Made by a program: the position numbers and the translations under genes
Notes under the pieces: generated by a model
The model's database searches: none
Told to the model about the DNA's origin: nothing
The model's input: only the letters and a program-made list of their open reading frames with translations
From: Stomatobaculum sp. F0698
GTDB lineage: Bacteria; Bacillota; Clostridia; Lachnospirales; Lachnospiraceae
DNA: 64,000 nucleotides
Direction: 5' to 3'
NCBI RefSeq assembly: GCF_030644385.1
Contig: NZ_CP130060.1
Coordinates: 62,001 to 126,000 of the forward strand
Shown here: positions 10,945 to 22,431 of the stretch, in pieces
Layout: the number at the start of each line of letters is the position of its first letter
How positions within the stretch are numbered: position 1 is the stretch's first letter

Positions 10945-12186
10945 ATGAACGAGACTAAGCCCGGCATTGAGGCGCTCTACGGAGAAGAGAGCGAGAGCGC
11001 GCGGAAGCGCTATGCGCATTTGCAAGAAAAGTTTACGGAGGAATTCGGCGCGGCAGAGCTCCGCTATTTCTCCGCGCCGGGAAGAACGGAGATTATCGGA
11101 AACCACACGGATCACAACGGCGGTAAGATACTGGCGGGCAGCATTACGCTCGACACCATCTGTGCCGCGGCACCGACCGATGACGGTATTATTACGATTG
11201 TGAGCGAGGGCTATCGCCCGGTCTCGGTAGACACCAAGGCGCTCTCGGAGACCCCGAAGGAAGACGGTTCCAGGTCCCTGGTTGCGGGCATGGCGGAGGC
11301 TGCGGAGAACTTCGGTTACAAGGTGGGCGGTTTTCGCGCCTATGTGACGAGCGAAGTCATTGCCTCGGCGGGCGTTTCGAGCTCGGCTTCGTTTGAGATG
11401 CTGGTCTGCACCGTACTCAATGCCTTTTATAACGAGGGCAAGATGAGCATTGCGGACTATGCGCGCATGGGCCAGTACGCGGAGAACCACTGGTGGAACA
11501 AGAGCTCCGGCTTAATGGACCAGATGGCCTGCGCGGCGGGCGGCGTGATTTTTCTCGATTTCTCCGAGGGAGTCCGCTACGAGACCATAGACTTCGCCTT
11601 CGACGACTACGACATGGATCTCTTTATCCTGAACACCGGCAAGGGGCATGCGGATCTCACCGAAGAGTACTCCTCCATCCCGCACGAGATGTATGCGGTC
11701 GCGGAAAAGCTCGGCGAGAGCCGGCTTGCGGATGTGAGCGAACTCGTGCTGCTCACGACCCTCGGCGGCATGCGGGAAAAACTCGGAAACGACAGAGCCC
11801 TGCTTCGCGCCCTGCATTTCTTCGAGGAGAACAAGCGCGTCGATGAGGCGCGAGAGGCGGTCGCTGCGGGCAACAGCGACAAGCTTTTACAGCTCATGGG
11901 GGAGAGCGGCAAGTCCTCCTACGAGTGGCTGCAGAACGCCTACTGCACCGAGGATACGAAGGAGCAGTCGATTCCGCTGGCCCTCTGCCTCACGGAGCTT
12001 TTCTTAAAGCGCTGTGCGCGCGGCACCTGCCGCATCCACGGCGGCGGTTTTGCCGGTGTCATCATGGCGATACTCCCGAAGGAGGAGCGCGAGGACTACA
12101 CGGCTTTCATGTCGCAGTTCTTCGGCAAAGAGAATATCTACCGCATGGGTCTGCGCCGTTACGGCGCGGTGGAAGTGAGTCTCTGA
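10945..12186 (+). CDS. galK: Galactokinase
   Basis: A 413-residue GHMP-family galactokinase that phosphorylates D-galactose at C1 with ATP, the entry step of the Leloir pathway. Motif 1 is APGRTEIIGNHTDHNGG (residues about 48-64, with the sugar-contacting region), motif 2 is the ATP loop VIASAGVSSSASFEML, and motif 3 is IHGGGFAGVIMAIL near the C-terminus. GGGGACAG precedes the ATG. It ends at a strong terminator and is directly followed by the mgl-type galactose transporter. No galT, galE or galM is visible here. Confidence 0.94.
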   Translation: MNETKPGIEALYGEESESARKRYAHLQEKFTEEFGAAELRYFSAPGRTEIIGNHTDHNGGKILAGSITLDTICAAAPTDDGIITIVSEGYRPVSVDTKALSETPKEDGSRSLVAGMAEAAENFGYKVGGFRAYVTSEVIASAGVSSSASFEMLVCTVLNAFYNEGKMSIADYARMGQYAENHWWNKSSGLMDQMACAAGGVIFLDFSEGVRYETIDFAFDDYDMDLFILNTGKGHADLTEEYSSIPHEMYAVAEKLGESRLADVSELVLLTTLGGMREKLGNDRALLRALHFFEENKRVDEAREAVAAGNSDKLLQLMGESGKSSYEWLQNAYCTEDTKEQSIPLALCLTELFLKRCARGTCRIHGGGFAGVIMAILPKEEREDYTAFMSQFFGKENIYRMGLRRYGAVEVSL

Positions 12187-12287
12187 GGAGAGTGCACAAA
12201 AAATTCACCGAAGCTTGTACAAAATGACGGGTAGTTAGAACTAAACACTTGGTTTCGCCGATAGAATCAAGGTGGCTTTCGAAGAAG

Positions 12288-12330
12288 AATAGGATTTTCT
12301 AGGAAAAGTATAGAAAATCCTATTTTTTTT
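12288..12330 (+). terminator. Intrinsic terminator after galK
   Basis: A 14-bp stem (AATAGGATTTTCTA with TAGAAAATCCTATT) around a nine-base loop runs into a T-run. It isolates galK from the transporter genes. Confidence 0.92.
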
Positions 12331-12366
12331 TGTGCCTCGACTTGGTATTCTTGTCCCATCACTGAA

Positions 12367-12402: not shown

Positions 12403-13719
12403 ATGAAGAAGGCAATTAGCATCATCGCAGCTGTGGCGATGGCGACCACGATGCTTGCGGCTTGCGGCGGCGGCGGCAAGACCGAGAGCAGCTCCGCAGC
12501 GGCAAGCGGCAGCGAGAGCGCAAGCGAGACCATGGCTGCGGGCGGCGAGACCGGAATGGTTGCAAACAAGGATAAGCCCTTGGTTTGGTACAACCGTCAG
12601 CCCTCGAACAGCTCCACGGGCGAGCTCGACAAAGAGGCACTTCACTTCAACGACAAGACCTACTATGTCGGCTTCGACGCAAACCAGGGTGCCGAGCTCC
12701 AGGGTGAGATGATTGTCGAGTACATCAAGAAGCACGCTGCCGAGATCGACAAGAACGGCGACGGCACGATCGGTTACGTCCTTGCTATCGGGGATATCGG
12801 CCACAACGACTCGATCGCTCGTACGAGAGGTGTCAGAAAGGCACTCGGCACGGCGGTTGAGAAGGACGGCGCAATCGATTCCACGCCGGCAGGCACGAAC
12901 GTCGACGGAACGGCAACGGTTGTCAAGGACGGCGAGATCGAAGTTGACGGCAAGACCTACAAGGTCAGAGAGCTTGCTTCGCAGGAGATGAAGAACGCAG
13001 CGGGCGCAACCTGGGACGCTGCAACGGCAGGAAACGGCATCAGCACCTGGGCTTCTTCCTTCGGCGATCAGATTGACATTGTCGCATCGAACAACGACGG
13101 CATGGGCATGTCCATGTTCAACGCTTGGTCCAAGGAGAAGGGTGTTCCGACCTTCGGTTACGACGCAAACTCCGACGCTGTTGCTGCGATTCCGGAGGGC
13201 TACGGCGGCACCATCAGCCAGCATGCAGACGTTCAGGCTTACCTCACGCTCAGAGTGTTGAGAAACCTTCTCGACGGTGTGGATGTCGACACGGGCATCG
13301 GCACGGCGGATGAGGCAGGCAATGTCCTCACCGCGGCAGATTACAAGTATGTGCCGGAGGAGAGATCCTACTACGCACTGAACCTTGCGGTCACCGCAGA
13401 CAACTATAAGGACTTCGCGGATGCAACCAAGGTCTATGCACCGGTCGCAAACAAGCTGGATGCAACGAAGCATGCAGAGAAGAAGGTCTGGCTGAACACC
13501 TACAACGCGGCGGATAACTTCCTTGGCTCTACCTACAAGCCCCTGCTGAAGAACTACGAGGCGCTGCTGAACCTGAAGGTCGATTACGTGGATGGCGACG
13601 GACAGACCGAGTCCAACATCACGAACCGCCTCGGCAACCCGAGCCAGTACGATGCATTCGCAATCAACATGGTGAAGACGGACAATGCAGCTTCCTACAC
13701 CGCAATTCTGAACCAGTAA
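12403..13719 (+). CDS. mglB: Galactose-binding lipoprotein of the MglB family with circularly permuted domain order
   Basis: A 438-residue lipoprotein (lipobox LAAC, Cys21, then a Ser/Ala-rich linker) that should deliver galactose or a galactoside to MglA-MglC. Residues about 58-140 match the middle of galactose-binding protein: PLVWYNRQPS with Asn64, TYYVGFDANQGAELQGE, the EF-hand-like calcium loop DKNGDGTIG (116-124), and GHNDSIAR with His134, Asp136, Arg140. ATWDAATA (Trp204), ASNNDGMGM and FGYDANSD (Asp254) follow. The normal N-terminal segment is absent at the front and appears at the end: WLNTYNAADNF (Tyr367, Asp371, Phe373) and FAINMVK (419-425). The usual TVLN of the hinge region reads TISQ. 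A ~40-residue insert lies at 155-195. Start at 12403 is set by AGAGGAGGAG upstream and by the signal peptide. No frameshift is visible. Confidence 0.88.
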   Translation: MKKAISIIAAVAMATTMLAACGGGGKTESSSAAASGSESASETMAAGGETGMVANKDKPLVWYNRQPSNSSTGELDKEALHFNDKTYYVGFDANQGAELQGEMIVEYIKKHAAEIDKNGDGTIGYVLAIGDIGHNDSIARTRGVRKALGTAVEKDGAIDSTPAGTNVDGTATVVKDGEIEVDGKTYKVRELASQEMKNAAGATWDAATAGNGISTWASSFGDQIDIVASNNDGMGMSMFNAWSKEKGVPTFGYDANSDAVAAIPEGYGGTISQHADVQAYLTLRVLRNLLDGVDVDTGIGTADEAGNVLTAADYKYVPEERSYYALNLAVTADNYKDFADATKVYAPVANKLDATKHAEKKVWLNTYNAADNFLGSTYKPLLKNYEALLNLKVDYVDGDGQTESNITNRLGNPSQYDAFAINMVKTDNAASYTAILNQ

Positions 13720-13789
13720 ACGAAGCTTGTGTTTTGGGGGTATCGGGGGCACACCTGATACCCCTGTTCTAATTATTGGGAGAAGAACC

Positions 13790-15298
13790 ATGTCAGATCA
13801 AAAAGAAGATATCATCTTATCCATACGAGGTATGTCGAAGTCCTTCGGCAGAAACCGCGTTCTGGATCACATTGAGCTCAATTTGAGACGGGGCTCCGTC
13901 ATGGGGCTCATGGGAGAGAACGGCGCCGGAAAGTCCACCATGATGAAGTGCCTCTTCGGAAGCTATCAGAAGGACGAGGGCGAGATCATTCTCGACGGAC
14001 ACGAGGTCTCGTTTTCGGGGCCGAAAGACGCATTGGAAAACGGAATTGCCATGGTTCATCAGGAGCTGAATCAGTGCCTGGAGCGCTCGGTTGTGGACAA
14101 TCTCTTCCTCGGGCGCTACCCCGTGAATTCCATGGGCATTGTGGATGAGGCGAGAATGAAGAAAGAGGCTGCGGAGCTCTTCCGAAGTCTCGGCATGACC
14201 GTGAACCTGACCCAGCCGATGCGCAACATGTCTGTCTCACAGCGGCAGATGTGCGAGATTGCAAAGGCAATTTCTTACAATTCCAAGATTATCGTGCTGG
14301 ATGAGCCGACCTCCTCGCTCACCGAGCCCGAGGTCAGAAAGTTGTTCGCGATGATGCGGAAACTCCGGGATCAGGGCATCTCCCTCATTTACATCTCGCA
14401 CAAGATGGATGAGATTTTTGAGATTTGCGACCAGGTCTCGGTGCTCCGAGACGGCAAGCTGGTCATGACGAAGGACACGAAGGACACCGACTTAAACGAG
14501 CTGATCGCAGCCATGGTCGGACGCTCGCTCGAGAATCGTTTCCCGCCGGTCGACAATACGCCGGGCAAGGACATCCTCTCGATTCAGCACCTCTCGACCA
14601 AGTTCGAGCCGCACATTCAGGACGTGAGCTTTAATGTCCGCGAGGGCGAGATCTTCGGTCTCTACGGCCTGGTCGGTGCGGGCAGAACGGAGCTCCTCGA
14701 GACCATTTTCGGCATACGCACCCGCGCTGCGGGCCGCGTCTATTACGGCGGAGAGCTCATGAACTTCAACTCGGCGAAGGAGGCCATGGAGCACGGCTTC
14801 GCGCTGATCACCGAGGAGAGAAAGGCCAACGGTCTCTTCCTCAAGGGAGACCTCACCTTTAACACGACCATTGCGAACCTGAAGCACTATAAGAACGGTC
14901 CGGCGCTCTCCGAGCAGAGGATGACAAAGGCGACCACGAAGCAGTTAAAGACCATGCGCACCAAGTGCATGGGCCCCGAGGATTTGATTTCGAGTCTCTC
15001 GGGCGGAAACCAGCAGAAGGTCATCTTCGGCAAGTGGCTCGAGCGAGAGCCGCGCGTCTTCATGATGGACGAGCCGACCCGCGGCATCGACGTCGGCGCG
15101 AAATATGAGATCTACGACCTCATCATCCGCATGGCGAAGGAGGGCAAGACCATCATCGTGGTTTCCTCCGAGATGCCGGAGATTCTGGGAATCACGAACC
15201 GCATCGGTGTGATGTCGAACGGCTATCTGTCCGGCATTGTCGAGACCAAAGAGACCAATCAGGAAGAACTGTTGCGTCTCAGCGCAAAGTACCTGTAA
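13790..15298 (+). CDS. mglA: Sugar ABC transporter ATP-binding protein (MglA-type, two cassettes)
   Basis: A 502-residue tandem ABC ATPase of the MglA/RbsA/XylG family that powers galactose import. The first cassette has Walker A GENGAGKST, a degenerate signature MSVSQRQM and Walker B IIVLDEPTSSL. The second has the family-typical altered Walker A GLVGAGRTE, a good LSGGNQQKV signature and Walker B VFMMDEPTRGID. ATG at 13790 is chosen over upstream in-frame starts because GGGAGAAG lies just before it. mglC starts 15 bases after the stop. Confidence 0.94.
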   Translation: MSDQKEDIILSIRGMSKSFGRNRVLDHIELNLRRGSVMGLMGENGAGKSTMMKCLFGSYQKDEGEIILDGHEVSFSGPKDALENGIAMVHQELNQCLERSVVDNLFLGRYPVNSMGIVDEARMKKEAAELFRSLGMTVNLTQPMRNMSVSQRQMCEIAKAISYNSKIIVLDEPTSSLTEPEVRKLFAMMRKLRDQGISLIYISHKMDEIFEICDQVSVLRDGKLVMTKDTKDTDLNELIAAMVGRSLENRFPPVDNTPGKDILSIQHLSTKFEPHIQDVSFNVREGEIFGLYGLVGAGRTELLETIFGIRTRAAGRVYYGGELMNFNSAKEAMEHGFALITEERKANGLFLKGDLTFNTTIANLKHYKNGPALSEQRMTKATTKQLKTMRTKCMGPEDLISSLSGGNQQKVIFGKWLEREPRVFMMDEPTRGIDVGAKYEIYDLIIRMAKEGKTIIVVSSEMPEILGITNRIGVMSNGYLSGIVETKETNQEELLRLSAKYL

Positions 15299-15313: not shown

Positions 15314-16996
15314 ATGAGTCAGTTAGGAAATGAGAAGGACGCTGCGATGCGCGCCGAGGAAGAGGCAAAGCTCCTCGAGCCGATTCGCGCACATGTCGGA
15401 GAGATACAGGCTAAGATCGACGCGCTCCGGAAGGACGGCAGCGATCAGGTACAGAAGCTGAAGAATCGCATTCAGCTCTTAAAAGAAGACAAGCACATCC
15501 AAAAGGACAAGAAGGATGCGCTGATCGCCGAGGCAGCTGCGGCGCTCACGGCGGCACAGGCGATTGAGAGTAAGAACCAGGCCGAGGTCTCGGGGCTCGT
15601 TGCCGAGGCAGAGAGTTACTTAAAAGAGCACTATGAGAAGGATTATCTGGGCCCGGTCACCGAAAACTGCAAGAGAGACAAAGAAAACGCAAAGGCACGC
15701 TATCAGGCGCGCGTCGCAGAGCTCGGCAAGGAGCATGAGAAAGAGCTTGCCCGTCTCCGCGCAGAGGGCGGTGCGGATTTGCAGCAGGAGCTGAAGGACG
15801 AGAACTACGTCTACAAGAATAAGCTCTTCGATGCAAAGATTAACTACGAGCAGGAACTGCAGGCAATCAAGGACAGAAGACACGAGGCCTTCGCCGAGCA
15901 GTATCACATGATCGATTTGCTCCGAATGTCCCGCTTCACCTTCGGACAGGCGCAGGCACAGCGCATCGAGAACTATAAGTACACCTTTAACCAGCGCCAG
16001 TTCCTCTTGAAGAACGGTCTCTATATTGTCATCGTGATGATCTTCATTGCGCTGAGCATTGTGACGCCGATTGTGAAGAACACCCAGCTCTTTACCTACA
16101 ACAATGTCCTGAACATTCTGCAGCAGGCGTCTCCGCGCATGTTCCTTGCGCTCGGCGTTGCGGGTCTGATTCTCCTGACCGGTACCGACCTCTCGATCGG
16201 AAGAATGACCGGTATGGGCATGGTCGCCGCGACCATCATCATGCACAAGGGTGTCAATACCGGTGCGGTCTTCGGCAAGATTTTTGACTTTACCTCCCTG
16301 CCCTATGTGGGAAGAGCGGTGCTTGCGCTTCTTACCTGCATTGTGCTCGCAACCTGCTTTACTTCGATTGCCGGCTTCTTCACGGCGCGCTTTAAGATGC
16401 ACCCCTTCATTTCGACCATGTCGAACATGCTGATTATCTTCGGTCTCGTGACCTATGCGACCAAGGGTGTGTCCTTCGGTGCCATTGAGCCGGGCATCGC
16501 TTCGATGATTGTTCCGAAGGTGAACGGCTTCCCGCTCATCATTGTCTGGGCCCTCGCGGCGATCTTGATTGTCTGGTTCATCTGGAACAAGACCCGTTTC
16601 GGAAAGAATCTCTACGCGGTCGGCGGCAACCCGGAGGCGGCTTCGGTCTCGGGTATCTCGGTCTTCGCGGTCACGATGGGCGCCTTCATGATGGCAGGTG
16701 TGCTCTACGGCTTCGGCGCATGGCTTGAGTGCGCACGCATGGTGGGTTCCGGTTCGGCGGCTTACGGCCAGGGCTGGGACATGGACGCAATCGCGGCCTG
16801 CGTGGTCGGCGGCGTTTCCTTCACCGGCGGTATCGGTAAGATTTCCGGCGTTGTGGTCGGCGTGCTGATTTTCACGGCACTCACCTATTCGCTGACCATA
16901 CTCGGTATCGATACCAACCTCCAGTTCGTCTTTGAGGGTATCATCATCCTGACGGCTGTCACCCTGGACTGCTTAAAGTACGTTCAGAAGAAGTAA
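15314..16996 (+). CDS. mglC: Galactose ABC transporter permease with long N-terminal coiled coil
   Basis: The C-terminal ~330 of 560 residues form an MglC/RbsC-type permease with about eight to ten membrane spans. It starts near residue 233 (FLLKNGLYIVIVMIFIAL) and contains the family motif GVAGLILLTGTDLSIGRMTG and later AVGGNPEAASVSGI. Typical MglC proteins are about 335 residues. The extra N-terminal ~230 residues are highly charged, rich in Glu, Lys, Ala and Gln, with heptad-like stretches (IQAKIDALRK, VQKLKNRIQLLKED, HEKELARLRA), and should be a cytoplasmic coiled coil. AGTGAGGAGAG precedes the ATG. The extension continues in frame into the permease with no stop, so it is not a separate gene. 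Confidence 0.9.
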   Translation: MSQLGNEKDAAMRAEEEAKLLEPIRAHVGEIQAKIDALRKDGSDQVQKLKNRIQLLKEDKHIQKDKKDALIAEAAAALTAAQAIESKNQAEVSGLVAEAESYLKEHYEKDYLGPVTENCKRDKENAKARYQARVAELGKEHEKELARLRAEGGADLQQELKDENYVYKNKLFDAKINYEQELQAIKDRRHEAFAEQYHMIDLLRMSRFTFGQAQAQRIENYKYTFNQRQFLLKNGLYIVIVMIFIALSIVTPIVKNTQLFTYNNVLNILQQASPRMFLALGVAGLILLTGTDLSIGRMTGMGMVAATIIMHKGVNTGAVFGKIFDFTSLPYVGRAVLALLTCIVLATCFTSIAGFFTARFKMHPFISTMSNMLIIFGLVTYATKGVSFGAIEPGIASMIVPKVNGFPLIIVWALAAILIVWFIWNKTRFGKNLYAVGGNPEAASVSGISVFAVTMGAFMMAGVLYGFGAWLECARMVGSGSAAYGQGWDMDAIAACVVGGVSFTGGIGKISGVVVGVLIFTALTYSLTILGIDTNLQFVFEGIIILTAVTLDCLKYVQKK

Positions 16997-17064: not shown

Positions 17065-17081
17065 GAATGGGAGGAAAGACC

Positions 17082-18686
17082 ATGCTCTATTCCTGCATGT
17101 TGGTGGACGATGAGGAAGATGTAATCAGTGCAATACGGCAAACCATAGACTGGGAGAGTCTGGGCTTCTCCGTGCCGCGTGAGGCGCACAACGGGCTTGA
17201 AGCCCTCGAGTTTGCGGAGGAGACCGCGCCGGATGTGGTTTTGACCGATATCAAGATGCCCTATATGGACGGGCTTGAACTTGCGCACAAATTAAAGGAA
17301 CTCTACCCGAATATACGCATTATCGTCTTTTCGGGCTTTGATGAATTTGAATACGCCCGCGAGGCCCTGCGCCTTGAGGCGGAGGAGTATATGTTAAAAC
17401 CGGTGCACGCAGCGGAGCTCTCGAAGCTCTTCCTCCGGATACGGGAGAGTCTGGATGCGGAGCGGGCAGAGCGACAGAACCGGGAACAGCTGCAGGCCTA
17501 TTACGAGAAGAGTCTGCCGCGGCTGCAGGAGAGTTTTTTTGTGTCTCTTCTGGACGGCAAGATTCCGGAGGAGGAGATTGCGCGGCAGGCCGAGGACTAT
17601 CAGCTGGAACTCGGCGCTTCTCCCTGTGCGGCGGCTGTTATCCACACGGGGAGCGCCGGGCTTCCGGACGGGGTCAGTGCCGTGATGATTGCTGCTTCGG
17701 TGCGGCGGCTTGCGGAGGAGAGCCTGGGACAGCGCTTTCACGCACGCTTTTTCGGCTACCTCGGCAATACAGTCATGCTCGCGGAACTCGGGGAGACGGA
17801 ACAGCTTCGCTTTCTCACCGATGCCTGCGACCGCTTTTGCCGGCTCGCGGCGGCAAAGCTCGGTGCGACGGTCACCATAGGGGTGGGAAAGGTCTGTGCG
17901 GCCTTTCATGAACTCAGAGACTCCTACACCGGTGCCCGCAATGCGCTCTCTTACCGCATGATATACGGGACAGGTAAGGCAATCAGCATTTCGGAGATTG
18001 CGCCGCAGGAGAAGAACGGCACCGATCTCTCGGAGCGGGAGTCCATGCAGGACATCTTTCGGAAGATGCGCATGGAAAAGGAGGAAGAACTCAGTGCTGC
18101 GATTGCGCGCTACATTGCGGAGAACGCGGCGGCACAGGCCTCGGTGCAGGAGTACCGCTTTTTTGTGATGGAGACCGCCGGAGAACTGTATCGCTTCGCA
18201 AAGGACAATGCGCTGAGCGCCGAAGAGATTTTCGGCGACAACGACGCGATGTACCGCATTTTACAGCAGTTGGAACCCGGCGAACTGACGCGCTGGATGG
18301 ATGAGGTCTGCCGCAAAATGCGGGAGATGATACAGCATAAGCGGGCGGACAGCGCGAGGTCCTTTGCGGCGCGGGCAATCGATTATGTCAACGAGCACTA
18401 CGCCGAGGGCGAACTCACCGTGGATGCGATGTGCTCGCATTTAAACGTGAGTGCCGCCTATTTTTCGACCATTTTTAAGCGCGAAACCGGAAAGACCTTT
18501 GTGCAATACCTGACCGACCTCCGCATGGAGAAGGCGGTCGAGCTGCTGCTCTCGACGAGCGAGAAGACCTATATGATTGCGCGAAAAGTAGGTTATGCGG
18601 ACCCGAACTATTTCAGCTATGTCTTTAAAAAGCAGTTCGGCATGTCGCCGAGCAAGTATAAGGACAGCCGGGGGAGCGAGGCATGA
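17082..18686 (+). CDS. Two-component response regulator, AraC family (YesN-type)
   Basis: The product has 534 residues. The N-terminal receiver domain has the acidic pair in LVDDEED and the phosphoacceptor Asp56 in VVLTDIKMPYMDG. A middle region of ~270 residues has no motif I recognise beyond YesN-like character. The C-terminal ~100 residues form an AraC double helix-turn-helix (LTVDAMCSHLNVSAAYFSTI and ARKVGYADPNYFSYVFKK). The ATG at 17082 follows GGGAGGAAAG. It heads a four-gene overlapping operon with its kinase and two sugar-binding-protein homologues, so it probably responds to galactose and acts on the adjacent mgl promoter. That target is inferred. Confidence 0.92.
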   Translation: MLYSCMLVDDEEDVISAIRQTIDWESLGFSVPREAHNGLEALEFAEETAPDVVLTDIKMPYMDGLELAHKLKELYPNIRIIVFSGFDEFEYAREALRLEAEEYMLKPVHAAELSKLFLRIRESLDAERAERQNREQLQAYYEKSLPRLQESFFVSLLDGKIPEEEIARQAEDYQLELGASPCAAAVIHTGSAGLPDGVSAVMIAASVRRLAEESLGQRFHARFFGYLGNTVMLAELGETEQLRFLTDACDRFCRLAAAKLGATVTIGVGKVCAAFHELRDSYTGARNALSYRMIYGTGKAISISEIAPQEKNGTDLSERESMQDIFRKMRMEKEEELSAAIARYIAENAAAQASVQEYRFFVMETAGELYRFAKDNALSAEEIFGDNDAMYRILQQLEPGELTRWMDEVCRKMREMIQHKRADSARSFAARAIDYVNEHYAEGELTVDAMCSHLNVSAAYFSTIFKRETGKTFVQYLTDLRMEKAVELLLSTSEKTYMIARKVGYADPNYFSYVFKKQFGMSPSKYKDSRGSEA

Positions 18687-20473
18687 GGGTACCGGACTTT
18701 TTTGGAATACCGCGCTCCATCCGCTTTATTATCGTGGTCTCCTTTACGGCGGTCTCGGTGAGCATCACGGCCTTGCTCGGCGTGGGGCTGTACCGCATCT
18801 TTGCGCGGCACACGGAGCAGCTACTCACCGAGAGCAGCGCCCAGCTTTTGCACCGGGTGTCGGAAAATCTGGGCGATTACCTCAGGAACATGCGATCCCT
18901 CTCGGACGCAGTTTACTATGCCTCGATTAAGAGTAAGGACTTTGCGAAGGAAAACACGAACCGGGAGATGGAGCTGCTCTACGAGGCGAATCGAGACGAT
19001 CTGATTTCCCTTGCGCTCTACCGTCGGGACGGGACCTTGCTCGGTGCGGCGCCGGTTGCGGTGGAGAAGCAGGATACGGATGTGCGGCAGCAGAGCTGGT
19101 TTCGGAGTGCGGCGGCCAAGGTGGAGAATTTGCATTTCTCGACCCCGCATGTACAGGACCTCTTTGACGACCCGAGTTATCGCTACCACTGGGTCATTTC
19201 GCTGAGCCGTGCGGTGGAACTAAACGAAGGCGGTCAGAGCAGTGAGGGTATACTGCTGGTCGATATGAACTATAAGAGCGTCGCGGACATGCTGGACGAT
19301 GTAAACCAGGACAGCGCGGGACGCTATGTCTATCTCTGTGACAGCCGCGGTGAATTGATTTACCACCCGCGGCGCATGCAGATTGACGCGGGACTGGTCG
19401 CGGAGAACAGCGTTGTTGCGGCGAACTATGCGGACGGCGCACACAGCGAAATTTTTCAGGGCGAGCGGCGCGAGGTTGTTGTGGAGACTGTAAGCTACAC
19501 CGGCTGGAAGCTGGTGGGGGTGATTCCCGGGACCTATTTTGCGCTCGGTCTTCTCAATGTGCGGCAGCTTGCGCTCGGGCTTGTGCTCTTTACGGCGGCG
19601 GCGCTGGCGCTTGTCAACCGACTGGCGGCCACGCAGGTCTCAAAGCCCCTGGTGCTGCTCAACGAGTCCATACGGAAACTGGAGCTCGGGCAGGAGACCC
19701 AGGTCTACATCGGCGGCAGCGCCGAGGTGCGCCATCTCGGACGCACCCTGCGTTCCTATGTGAAGGAGATTCAGCTCCTCATGCGGGACATAGTGCGCGA
19801 ACAGGAGGAGAAGCGAAAGAGCGAGCTCGACGCGCTGCAGTCCCAGATTAACCCGCACTTTCTCTATAACACCCTGGACTCCGTGGTTTGGATGATCGAA
19901 GGAAAGCGCCACGAAGATGCCGTGCTCATGATTACCCGGCTCGCGAGCCTCTTCCGCATCAGTCTGAGCGGCGGAAAGACCGTTATCTCGATGGAGGCGG
20001 AACTGCAGCACGCGGAGAACTATATGAACATCCAGAAGGTGCGCTTTAAGAACAGCTTTCGGATGCGCTACGAAATCGATCCGGCGGTGCGGAACTACTG
20101 CACGGTCAAACTGATACTCCAGCCTATACTGGAGAACGCCATTTACTACGGCGTGAAGGGCATGGAGGATGAGGGAGAGATTTTGCTCCGCGCGGAGTTA
20201 ACGGACGGAGAACTGGTGCTCACCGTTCGGGACAACGGCTACGGCATTCCGGCGGAGGAAGTGCTTCTGCTCTTAAAAGAGGGAGAACATCGCCCGAGTC
20301 GCGGTTCCGGCGTGGGGCTTTTGAATGTACAGCGGCGCATTCAGCTGCGCTTCGGTGCGCAATACGGTCTCCGCATCGAGAGCGAGCCGGATGAGGGAAC
20401 CGAAGTGCGTATATGCCTGCCGGCCATTCCCTACAACGAAGAAAACAGACAGCGGCTTGAGGAGGGACGATGA
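18683..20473 (+). CDS. Sensor histidine kinase, YesM/LytS-like
   Basis: A 596-residue membrane kinase. A first membrane span near residues 12-37 (FIIVVSFTAVSVSITALLG) and a second near 287-312 flank a ~250-residue extracellular sensor that looks like a double-Cache domain. A HAMP-like linker, the His_kinase domain with phospho-His392 in QINPHFLYNTLD, and a HATPase domain (ILENAIYYG, VRDNGYGIP, GSGVGLLNV) follow. It overlaps the regulator by four bases and the next gene by four bases. The downstream SBP-like proteins may present the sugar to its sensor domain. Confidence 0.93.
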   Translation: MRVPDFFGIPRSIRFIIVVSFTAVSVSITALLGVGLYRIFARHTEQLLTESSAQLLHRVSENLGDYLRNMRSLSDAVYYASIKSKDFAKENTNREMELLYEANRDDLISLALYRRDGTLLGAAPVAVEKQDTDVRQQSWFRSAAAKVENLHFSTPHVQDLFDDPSYRYHWVISLSRAVELNEGGQSSEGILLVDMNYKSVADMLDDVNQDSAGRYVYLCDSRGELIYHPRRMQIDAGLVAENSVVAANYADGAHSEIFQGERREVVVETVSYTGWKLVGVIPGTYFALGLLNVRQLALGLVLFTAAALALVNRLAATQVSKPLVLLNESIRKLELGQETQVYIGGSAEVRHLGRTLRSYVKEIQLLMRDIVREQEEKRKSELDALQSQINPHFLYNTLDSVVWMIEGKRHEDAVLMITRLASLFRISLSGGKTVISMEAELQHAENYMNIQKVRFKNSFRMRYEIDPAVRNYCTVKLILQPILENAIYYGVKGMEDEGEILLRAELTDGELVLTVRDNGYGIPAEEVLLLLKEGEHRPSRGSGVGLLNVQRRIQLRFGAQYGLRIESEPDEGTEVRICLPAIPYNEENRQRLEEGR

Positions 20474-21393
20474 AGCGGCAGACAGTGGTTTGGATTGCGG
20501 CAGCCGCGGCGGCGTTCGCCGTGCTGCTCCCGCTCTTTTTGGTGCGCACGCGCTATGCTTCGGAGCAGGCGGGGAGAAGAGCGCGCATTGCGGTGCTCAC
20601 GCGCCGCGAGGCGGATGTCGGCACCTCGGTGCTCTTTGCGGGAATGGAAAAGGCGGCGGAGGACGGCAAACTGGTGCTGAATTATGTGATGGTGCCGGAG
20701 GATGCCGACGCGGAAGCAGAGCTGAAACTCGCGCGACAGGAGATTGAGGACGGCGCGCAGGCGCTGATCATAGAGCCGGTCGCTTCCGAAGGCAGCGGCA
20801 AAATGGCGGAGGAACTGTCTCAGCGCGCCGTTGTCGTATTGCTCGGCGAGCGCGCCGACACGGAGGCCGCGGGGCGTTTCGGCTCTGTCAGCGCCGATAA
20901 CTATGCAATCGGCGTGGCGCTCGGGAGAGAAATTCGGAAAGGTGCGGCAGAGACAGGGGGCAGTGTGGCCCTGCTTCCTGCCGCGGGTTCTCGGGGCTCG
21001 GTGGAACAGAGACGACGGGGCGTTTTGGAAGCGCTGCGCGGAAGCGGCATTTCGCTGAGTGAGGAAGCGGAAGGCGCCTCGATTGTCGCGGGGCTTGAGG
21101 ACAGTGCGCTCACGGAGGCCCTTTCGTATGCGCTCACGGCAAAGGAACGGCCCCTGGTCTACGGCGTCGGGAACTCAAACCGTAATCTCTACGGTTTGGA
21201 CCGCGGCGACATTCGCGCGATGATAGTCATCAATGAGTTCAACATGGGGTATCTTGCGGTCGCGGAGGCAAAGAAAAAACTCTCGAGCAGGCTCCGGGAA
21301 ATGGAGCAGCTGAGAGTCGGCGATACCCTGGTATCAAGAGACAATATGTACAGTGCAGAAAATCAGAAATTACTCTTTCCGCTGGTGCGGTGA
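20470..21393 (+). CDS. Membrane-anchored periplasmic-binding-protein-like protein
   Basis: The 307-residue product has an N-terminal signal anchor (VVWIAAAAAAFAVLLPLFLV) and then a type I periplasmic-binding-protein fold (Peripla_BP_4-like) in canonical order: RARIAVLTRRE, ALIIEPVAS, GSVSADNYAIGVALGREI, GSVALLPAAGSRGS and a late VVI-type strand. No lipobox Cys is seen, so it stays as a membrane anchor. The sugar-binding residues of galactose-binding protein are not conserved. It is more likely a sensory partner of the kinase than a transporter subunit; XylFII-LytS-type pairs are the known analogy. It overlaps the kinase gene by four bases. Confidence 0.75.
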   Translation: MKRQTVVWIAAAAAAFAVLLPLFLVRTRYASEQAGRRARIAVLTRREADVGTSVLFAGMEKAAEDGKLVLNYVMVPEDADAEAELKLARQEIEDGAQALIIEPVASEGSGKMAEELSQRAVVVLLGERADTEAAGRFGSVSADNYAIGVALGREIRKGAAETGGSVALLPAAGSRGSVEQRRRGVLEALRGSGISLSEEAEGASIVAGLEDSALTEALSYALTAKERPLVYGVGNSNRNLYGLDRGDIRAMIVINEFNMGYLAVAEAKKKLSSRLREMEQLRVGDTLVSRDNMYSAENQKLLFPLVR

Positions 21394-21405: not shown

Positions 21406-22431
21406 ATGCGGAATCGAATGCGGCTCCTCATACTCTTCCTCATGGCGCTCCTCTGTTTTACGGGTTGCCGGGACCGGAAGACGGAGGGCAAAAAGAAGGT
21501 GCGAATCGGCGTGAGTGTCTACGACGGCTACGACACCTTTATCTCGGAACTCACGACTGCGTTTCGCGAAGAGGCGGCCAGAGAGGCGCGCAGTGTGCAG
21601 ATTGAACTCAGCGATGCGGGGCGCAGTCAAGAAGTGCAGGATAAGGCTGTGCGGCAGATGCTCGACAACGGCTGCGACATCATCTGCGTGAATTTGGTCG
21701 ACCGGACGGCGCCCGGAAAAATTATCGACATGGCAAAGAAAAAGAACGTGCCGATTATCTTCTTTAATCGCGAGCTGGTCGAAGAGGATTTGGAGCGCTG
21801 GGACAAACTCTACTATGTCGGCGCCGATGCCAAGGAGTCCGGCGTATTGCAGGGTGAACTCGCGGCAGCCTACCTAAAGGCACATCCGGAGGCGGACCGG
21901 AATCAAGACGGCGTGATTCAGTATGTGGTACTGGAAGGAGAGGCCGGGCACCAGGACGCCATCCTAAGGACCGAGTATGCGGCCTCCACCCTGAAAGAGC
22001 AGGGCATTGCGCTCGAAAAACTGGGCTATGCGCTTGCAAACTGGAACCGCTCCCAGGCGCAGACCCAGGTACAGCAGCTGCTGCAGAGCTACGGGGCCCA
22101 AATTGAACTGATACTCGCAAACAACGATGACATGGCGCTCGGCGCCCTGGATGCTTACCGGGCGAGCAACATCCCCCTGCCGCCGATCTTCGGAATCGAC
22201 GGAACCGAACCCGGGCTCGCGGCGGTGCGCGATCAGAGTCTCACGGGAACCGTCAAGAACAACGGAATCGGTCAGGCTGAGGCCATGCTCTCTCTGGCGC
22301 TTTCCCTCGCCGCGGGAGAAAAATCCGCTTACACGCTTGACCGAGGCAAGTATATTCGGATACCCTACGAGGCGGTAAGCGCGGACAAGGACTCTTCCAT
22401 GACCGTGCGTAGCACGGAGCTTTCGCGCTGA
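21406..22431 (+). CDS. Galactose-binding lipoprotein, canonical domain order
   Basis: A 341-residue lipoprotein (lipobox CFTGC, Cys21) of the MglB/galactose-binding protein family in the normal order. RIGVSVYDGYDTF has Tyr39, Asp43 and Phe45. ICVNLVDRT, IIFFNRE (Asn121), YYVGADAKESG, the calcium loop DRNQDGVIQ (164-172), GHQDAILR (His182, Asp184, Arg188), Trp213, LANNDD, FGIDG (Asp265) and TVKNN follow. All main sugar contacts are present. It lies last in the regulator-kinase operon, 12 bases after the SBP-like gene, which suggests a sensing role rather than, or besides, transport. Its 3' end overlaps the convergent unknown gene by 67 bases. Confidence 0.92.
   Translation: MRNRMRLLILFLMALLCFTGCRDRKTEGKKKVRIGVSVYDGYDTFISELTTAFREEAAREARSVQIELSDAGRSQEVQDKAVRQMLDNGCDIICVNLVDRTAPGKIIDMAKKKNVPIIFFNRELVEEDLERWDKLYYVGADAKESGVLQGELAAAYLKAHPEADRNQDGVIQYVVLEGEAGHQDAILRTEYAASTLKEQGIALEKLGYALANWNRSQAQTQVQQLLQSYGAQIELILANNDDMALGALDAYRASNIPLPPIFGIDGTEPGLAAVRDQSLTGTVKNNGIGQAEAMLSLALSLAAGEKSAYTLDRGKYIRIPYEAVSADKDSSMTVRSTELSR

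Follow-up and report, generated by a model that had tools for sequence, protein, structure and literature searches.

A naturally circularly permuted glucose/galactose-binding lipoprotein, here called cpMglB, is encoded beside mglA and mglC at positions 12403..13719 (+ strand) of a 64,000-nucleotide stretch (the window) of Stomatobaculum sp. F0698 (NZ_CP130060.1, positions 62,001 to 126,000), whose genome is a single 2.15 Mb contig. This is supported by a rotated alignment, a profile test, a predicted model, and homologous crystal structures, which agree with an initial annotation of a circularly permuted galactose-binding protein in an mgl operon. The whole explanation, a rotated MglB-fold, lipid-anchored receptor of a CUT2-type glucose/galactose importer of the TpMglB-2 family, is given a probability of about 0.93. 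The rotation as a kind, which that annotation had believed to be undescribed, is already known: Brautigam et al. published the crystal structure of TpMglB-2 in 2016, called its topology circularly permuted, and named the permuted subclass “Type Ic/Cluster Bc”, whose relatives they placed in Spirochaetes and a Gram-positive/gut clade (PMC4990184). New are the anatomy of the cpMglB member, a test of the origin of its moved segment, and the pairing of receptor and permease across genomes.

Anatomy and chain order of cpMglB

Positions 12403-13719 form an unbroken frame of 438 amino acids and a stop codon, with AGGAGG close 5' of the ATG. The frame opens with a lipoprotein signal (12403..12465, +; lipobox LAAC), whose Cys21 is kept by 90% or more of the 56 permuted proteins in alignment A1, a set picked by the author that leaves out the T. 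pallidum protein. All further parts lie on the + strand. According to Pfam, alignments, and profiles, the core (residues 54-300, 12562..13302) corresponds to residues ~80 to ~275 of mature E. coli MglB in unchanged order, and the moved segment (residues 358-438, 13474..13716), which carries PF18610, corresponds to mature residues 1-79. Between them, a linker at residues ~301-357 (13303..13473; A1, profiles, predicted structure) leads from the old C-terminal part to the old N-terminus. Within the core, residues ~151-202 (12853..13008) form a stretch that exceeds its E. coli MglB counterpart by roughly 35-40 residues in the alignments and is shorter in treponemes. The continuous frame from lipoprotein signal to stop, the new linker, and the insert of ~40 residues had all been noted in the initial annotation and are borne out.

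The PF13407 match of cpMglB enters only at profile position 94 and covers residues 84-292, followed by PF18610 (Peripla_BP_7) at residues 359-429 with 140.5 bits. PF18610 lies in the moved segment and matches 56/56 A1 members; its Pfam line does not mention a permutation. In the paralogue at 21406-22431, PF13407 profile positions 1 to 258 are matched in one piece and in canonical order, as annotated. The equivalog NF011924 of NCBIfam (MglB) gives cpMglB 93.5 bits in two stretches, under the cut-off of 420, and this shortfall is not diagnostic alone because the canonical-order paralogue, with 249.8 bits, also fails. By Pfam, alignments, and profiles, the canonical chain order of NF011924 MglB is absent from cpMglB. 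Near relatives include a protein of Lachnospiraceae bacterium ACC2 with 92% identity and, among the 120 matches listed of 7992, two labelled Stomatobaculum, a genus of Lachnospiraceae (P0048, 89%; P0063, 81%).

Smith-Waterman scores against E. coli MglB rose from 227 (186 aligned) to 263 (270 aligned, 90 identical) when cpMglB was rotated, and against the window paralogue from 224 to 233, a small gain; the rotated order thus scored higher in both comparisons. A1 was also compared with a canonical profile of 38 locus paralogues, the window's own paralogue, and E. coli MglB. Here, the rotated order reached 266.0 and the unrotated 244.1, with the best cut at residue 342 in a scan every six residues. 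The moved segment alone scored 46 against E. coli MglB, which was reached by 6/1000 shuffles, and 30.4 against the canonical profile (P 3.6e-4), where it falls on the canonical N-terminus in the correct register. Column shuffles of the segment averaged 13.3 (sd 2.4, maximum 23.5), and 0/200 were as good. Compared one by one with seven E. coli CUT2 receptors, the segment scored best with MglB (20.2), followed by LsrB (17.0), although these scores are weak. In the predicted structure, the segment holds strands at 360-366, 391-397, and 418-422, and the cpMglB model superposes on 6bgc over model residues 51..438. Together with the rotated alignments, the model places the first three N-lobe strands of MglB at the C-terminus of cpMglB.

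The same order is common to 80/80 loci (the 80 best matches out of 422 relatives in genome contigs), 56/56 A1 members, and three PDB entries. In one relative, the permuted mglB frame (L163:2225-3172) has 316 codons, lacks about the first 133 residues, and overlaps a receptor-like gene upstream of it, as by a deletion, a fusion, or an assembly fault. Two unusually long homologues among the 120 of 7992 matches listed, P0059 and P0077, repeat internal stretches and are not permutation intermediates with the moved segment at both ends, a result that does not amount to a search for intermediates.

Judged by its sequence, cpMglB is a member of the TpMglB-2 family (Type Ic/Cluster Bc). TpMglB-2 (Tp0684 of Treponema pallidum; PDB 5jx2, 6bgc, 6bgd) is likewise a lipoprotein with the rotated order and ~43% identity, and residues 19-384 of 5jx2 are colinear with window residues 55-435 at E 2.8e-90, the last ~80 residues included. 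The linker aligns with that of TpMglB-2, where the family trait is a fourth hinge crossing and an extended connector. The Ser/Ala/Glu-rich tether of cpMglB and its insert are both longer than in treponeme A1 members. E. coli MglB shares the core fold and the operon with mglA and mglC, while its order is canonical and that of cpMglB rotated.

Ten sugar contacts of E. coli MglB (Table 2 of PMC4990184) have equivalents in cpMglB: D371, F373, N64, H134, D136, R140, W204, N231, D254, and Q273. Nine are identical to E. coli, the exception being N256->Q273, a trait of the TpMglB-2 family (PMC4990184), and all ten are invariant in 56/56 A1 members. The annotation's observation that the sugar contacts are kept in rotated order therefore stands with this one exchange. 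E. coli D14 and F16 are found in the moved segment as D371 and F373, whereas T. pallidum has Asn in place of D14 (PMC4990184). Both calcium-loop changes of TpMglB-2, Q142->Gly and E205->Asp (PMC4990184), occur in cpMglB as G124 and D225. From the kept contacts, the ligand would be galactose (or glucose).

The operon and its extended permease

The window gene is followed on the + strand by mglA (13790..15298, an ATP-binding cassette (ABC) ATPase with its ATG at 13790, where the mechanical open reading frame starts earlier at a TTG) and mglC (15314..16996, permease, 560 amino acids). The gap between cpmglB and mglA holds a hairpin (13735..13766, +), and the stretch 13722-13785 folds with z -3.35, 2/200 shuffles being as good. 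Upstream are galactokinase (galK, 10945..12186, +) and, between galK and cpmglB, a terminator-like palindrome of 21 pairs with a terminal T run (12281..12331, +; -22.6 kcal/mol, z -7.2, 0/200 shuffles as good). The palindrome is AU-rich and was missed by a scan based on G+C. Downstream, all on the + strand, follow a response regulator with a receiver and an AraC-type helix-turn-helix (17067..18686), a histidine kinase with a dCache domain (18683..20473), a second sugar-binding-type protein with PF13407 (20470..21393), and the canonical-order MglB paralogue (21406..22431), which is probably the sensing partner of this two-component system. The 307-residue product of 20470-21393 has 70% identity in locus L005 and ~22-32% in other loci where it was matched.

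MglA follows cpMglB in 79/80 loci and the pair MglA-MglC in 77/80; the remaining three contigs break off, two within mglA and one 127 bases past cpmglB. Among the 54 loci whose contigs extend far enough in both directions, a best match (>80 bits) to the histidine kinase occurred in 47 and a canonical-order MglB in 33.

MglC has 560 residues here and 336 in E. coli, and ~225 residues precede its first transmembrane stretch, the first hydrophobic window lying at 229. This N-terminal extension (~residues 1-225, 15314..15988, +) has no Pfam match, is 36% charged, and contains no hydrophobic segment. In the model, it is helical at 5-40, 43-58, 64-151, and 156-204, with a block predicted local distance difference test (pLDDT) of 81-90 for residues 21-200 and a predicted template modelling score (pTM) of 0.50 for the whole model. 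Related permeases have their N-terminus inward, so the extension is presumably cytoplasmic. In 75/76 MglC frames of the 80 loci, 169-224 residues lie ahead of the E. coli start, the exception being L058, where mglC is broken into two overlapping frames. Conservation across 45 relatives averages 50% identity in the extension vs 83% in the core. A fold search with the MglC model returned no match at E <=0.001 and gives no reading on that account.

The extension (query MglC residues 1-235) and PF18610 were sought separately in the same genomes, all from the window's phylum. Both were found in 21/200 genomes of the window's family, in 5/101 of the family of G069, and in 6/100 of the family of G534. 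In total, 32/401 genomes carried both, the same genomes each time, and 0 carried one alone. The two lie <=2.5 kb apart on one contig in 31/32 genomes, and the fragmented assembly of G580 has them on separate contigs. At gene level, the second permuted copy of Stomatobaculum sp. F0698, which has no adjoining mglC, is an exception. Because co-inheritance of neighbouring genes would produce this pattern too, and the genomes are not independent samples, the pairing speaks for linkage, not function.

In wider samples in which PF18610 alone was sought, it occurred in 2/299 genomes of the phylum and 3/291 of the class. One scan of viral contigs with a homologue from Treponema denticola yielded no relatives. 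A short, E. coli-type MglC (E <=1e-90) was found in 3/200 genomes of the window's family and in 0 of the 21 PF18610 carriers, which is no census of canonical operons because the window's own MglC also fails this cut-off. In the two of these three genomes whose neighbourhoods were read, canonical mglB and mglA are accompanied by MglC frames of 365 and 350 codons.

Homologues of the tp0686 permease gene product share the distribution of the TpMglB-2 relatives (PMC4990184). Compared with TpMglB-2 as described, the MglC neighbouring cpMglB bears a long extension, a comparison made on the cpMglB side alone. In the literature searched, neither an extended MglC nor a link between one and a permuted MglB came up; the extension was seldom an explicit target there, and most subscription journals lay outside.

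Alternative explanations

The rotated order could in principle stem from an assembly error or a frameshift, and the shortened frame of L163 illustrates such a case in a relative. Nothing of the kind was found for the window locus, and the recurrence of the order in the 80 loci, A1, and solved structures excludes an assembly error, leaving this explanation with practically no chance. Brautigam et al. also left room for an origin of the moved part in another gene (PMC4990184), with convergence on the N-lobe strands of MglB. Sequence to sequence, the moved segment indeed matches the window's canonical paralogue at chance level (score 25; 847/1000 shuffles as good), and its single-sequence profile scores are weak. 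Its match to the canonical MglB profile in the right register, its preference for MglB among the E. coli receptors, and the D14/F16 contacts kept in every A1 member speak the other way. Due to the profile result, an origin from another gene is disfavoured and appears very improbable.

The receptor could also serve a sugar other than glucose or galactose in Stomatobaculum sp. F0698. The genome holds a second permuted copy (L116:6561-7871, 72% identical to the window copy), which closes a cluster of class II aldolase-like, isomerase-like, and FGGY kinase genes, a gene for a 326-residue protein without an NCBIfam match, and an aldo/keto reductase-like gene. This neighbourhood indicates that permuted receptors can occupy other sugar contexts. 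The window copy has equivalents for all ten glucose contacts, nine of them identical, but the second copy, itself in A1, keeps them too, so that the contacts alone cannot separate the two contexts. The adjacency of galK suggests galactose, and a different sugar at the window locus is considered unlikely.

Several points weigh against a glucose/galactose importer of this design. A galactokinase-like gene is within reach in just 12/54 loci with room on both sides, and in the window the terminator-like palindrome parts galK from cpmglB. The second permuted copy adjoins neither mglA nor mglC. Gln replaces N256, as in TpMglB-2 (PMC4990184), and the sugar of Gram-positive members is a prediction from kept contacts. 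The chance-level match of the moved segment to the window paralogue belongs here as well.

A quick tree, with support by the Shimodaira-Hasegawa-like approximate likelihood ratio test (SH-aLRT) only, was built from 89 proteins: the 80 loci, the two copies of the window genome, and seven treponeme-type outgroup proteins. It parts the Bacillota and treponeme-type sides with a support of 100, Bacillota families being mixed in places. This fits the two-clade picture and the possible transfer put forward by Brautigam et al. (PMC4990184). A recent duplication as the source of the second copy was rejected, as this copy does not group with the window copy; it sits on a long branch of unsure place.

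Proposed function and meaning

Within a CUT2-type ABC importer cpMglB-MglA-MglC, cpMglB would be the lipid-anchored receptor for glucose or galactose, its chain starting at the strand after the first ~79 MglB residues and ending with those residues via the new linker. It would close on the sugar and dock on MglC, and MglA would power import. Together with the canonical-order MglB as its putative sensor, the two-component system encoded downstream may sense the sugar and control the operon. In the window's lineage, the operon permease adds its long helical and presumably cytoplasmic N-terminal extension. It is conceivable, albeit doubtful, that the rotated receptor forms one redesigned importer with the lengthened permease, a distinct CUT2 subclass in which the helical arm of MglC and the altered lipoprotein tether point co-evolved with the rotation, perhaps docking a regulator or tuning how receptor and permease meet.

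Natural circular permutation of ligand-binding proteins is uncommon, and the present case shows the freedom of chain order while the binding site is kept. The treponeme case now becomes a recurrent transporter type, found in 21 of the 200 genomes sampled from the window's family. The question of origin left by Brautigam et al. (PMC4990184) is addressed by the profile test, and the genome-level pairing with the extended permease, so far unbroken, offers a testable idea for why the rotated receptor was kept.
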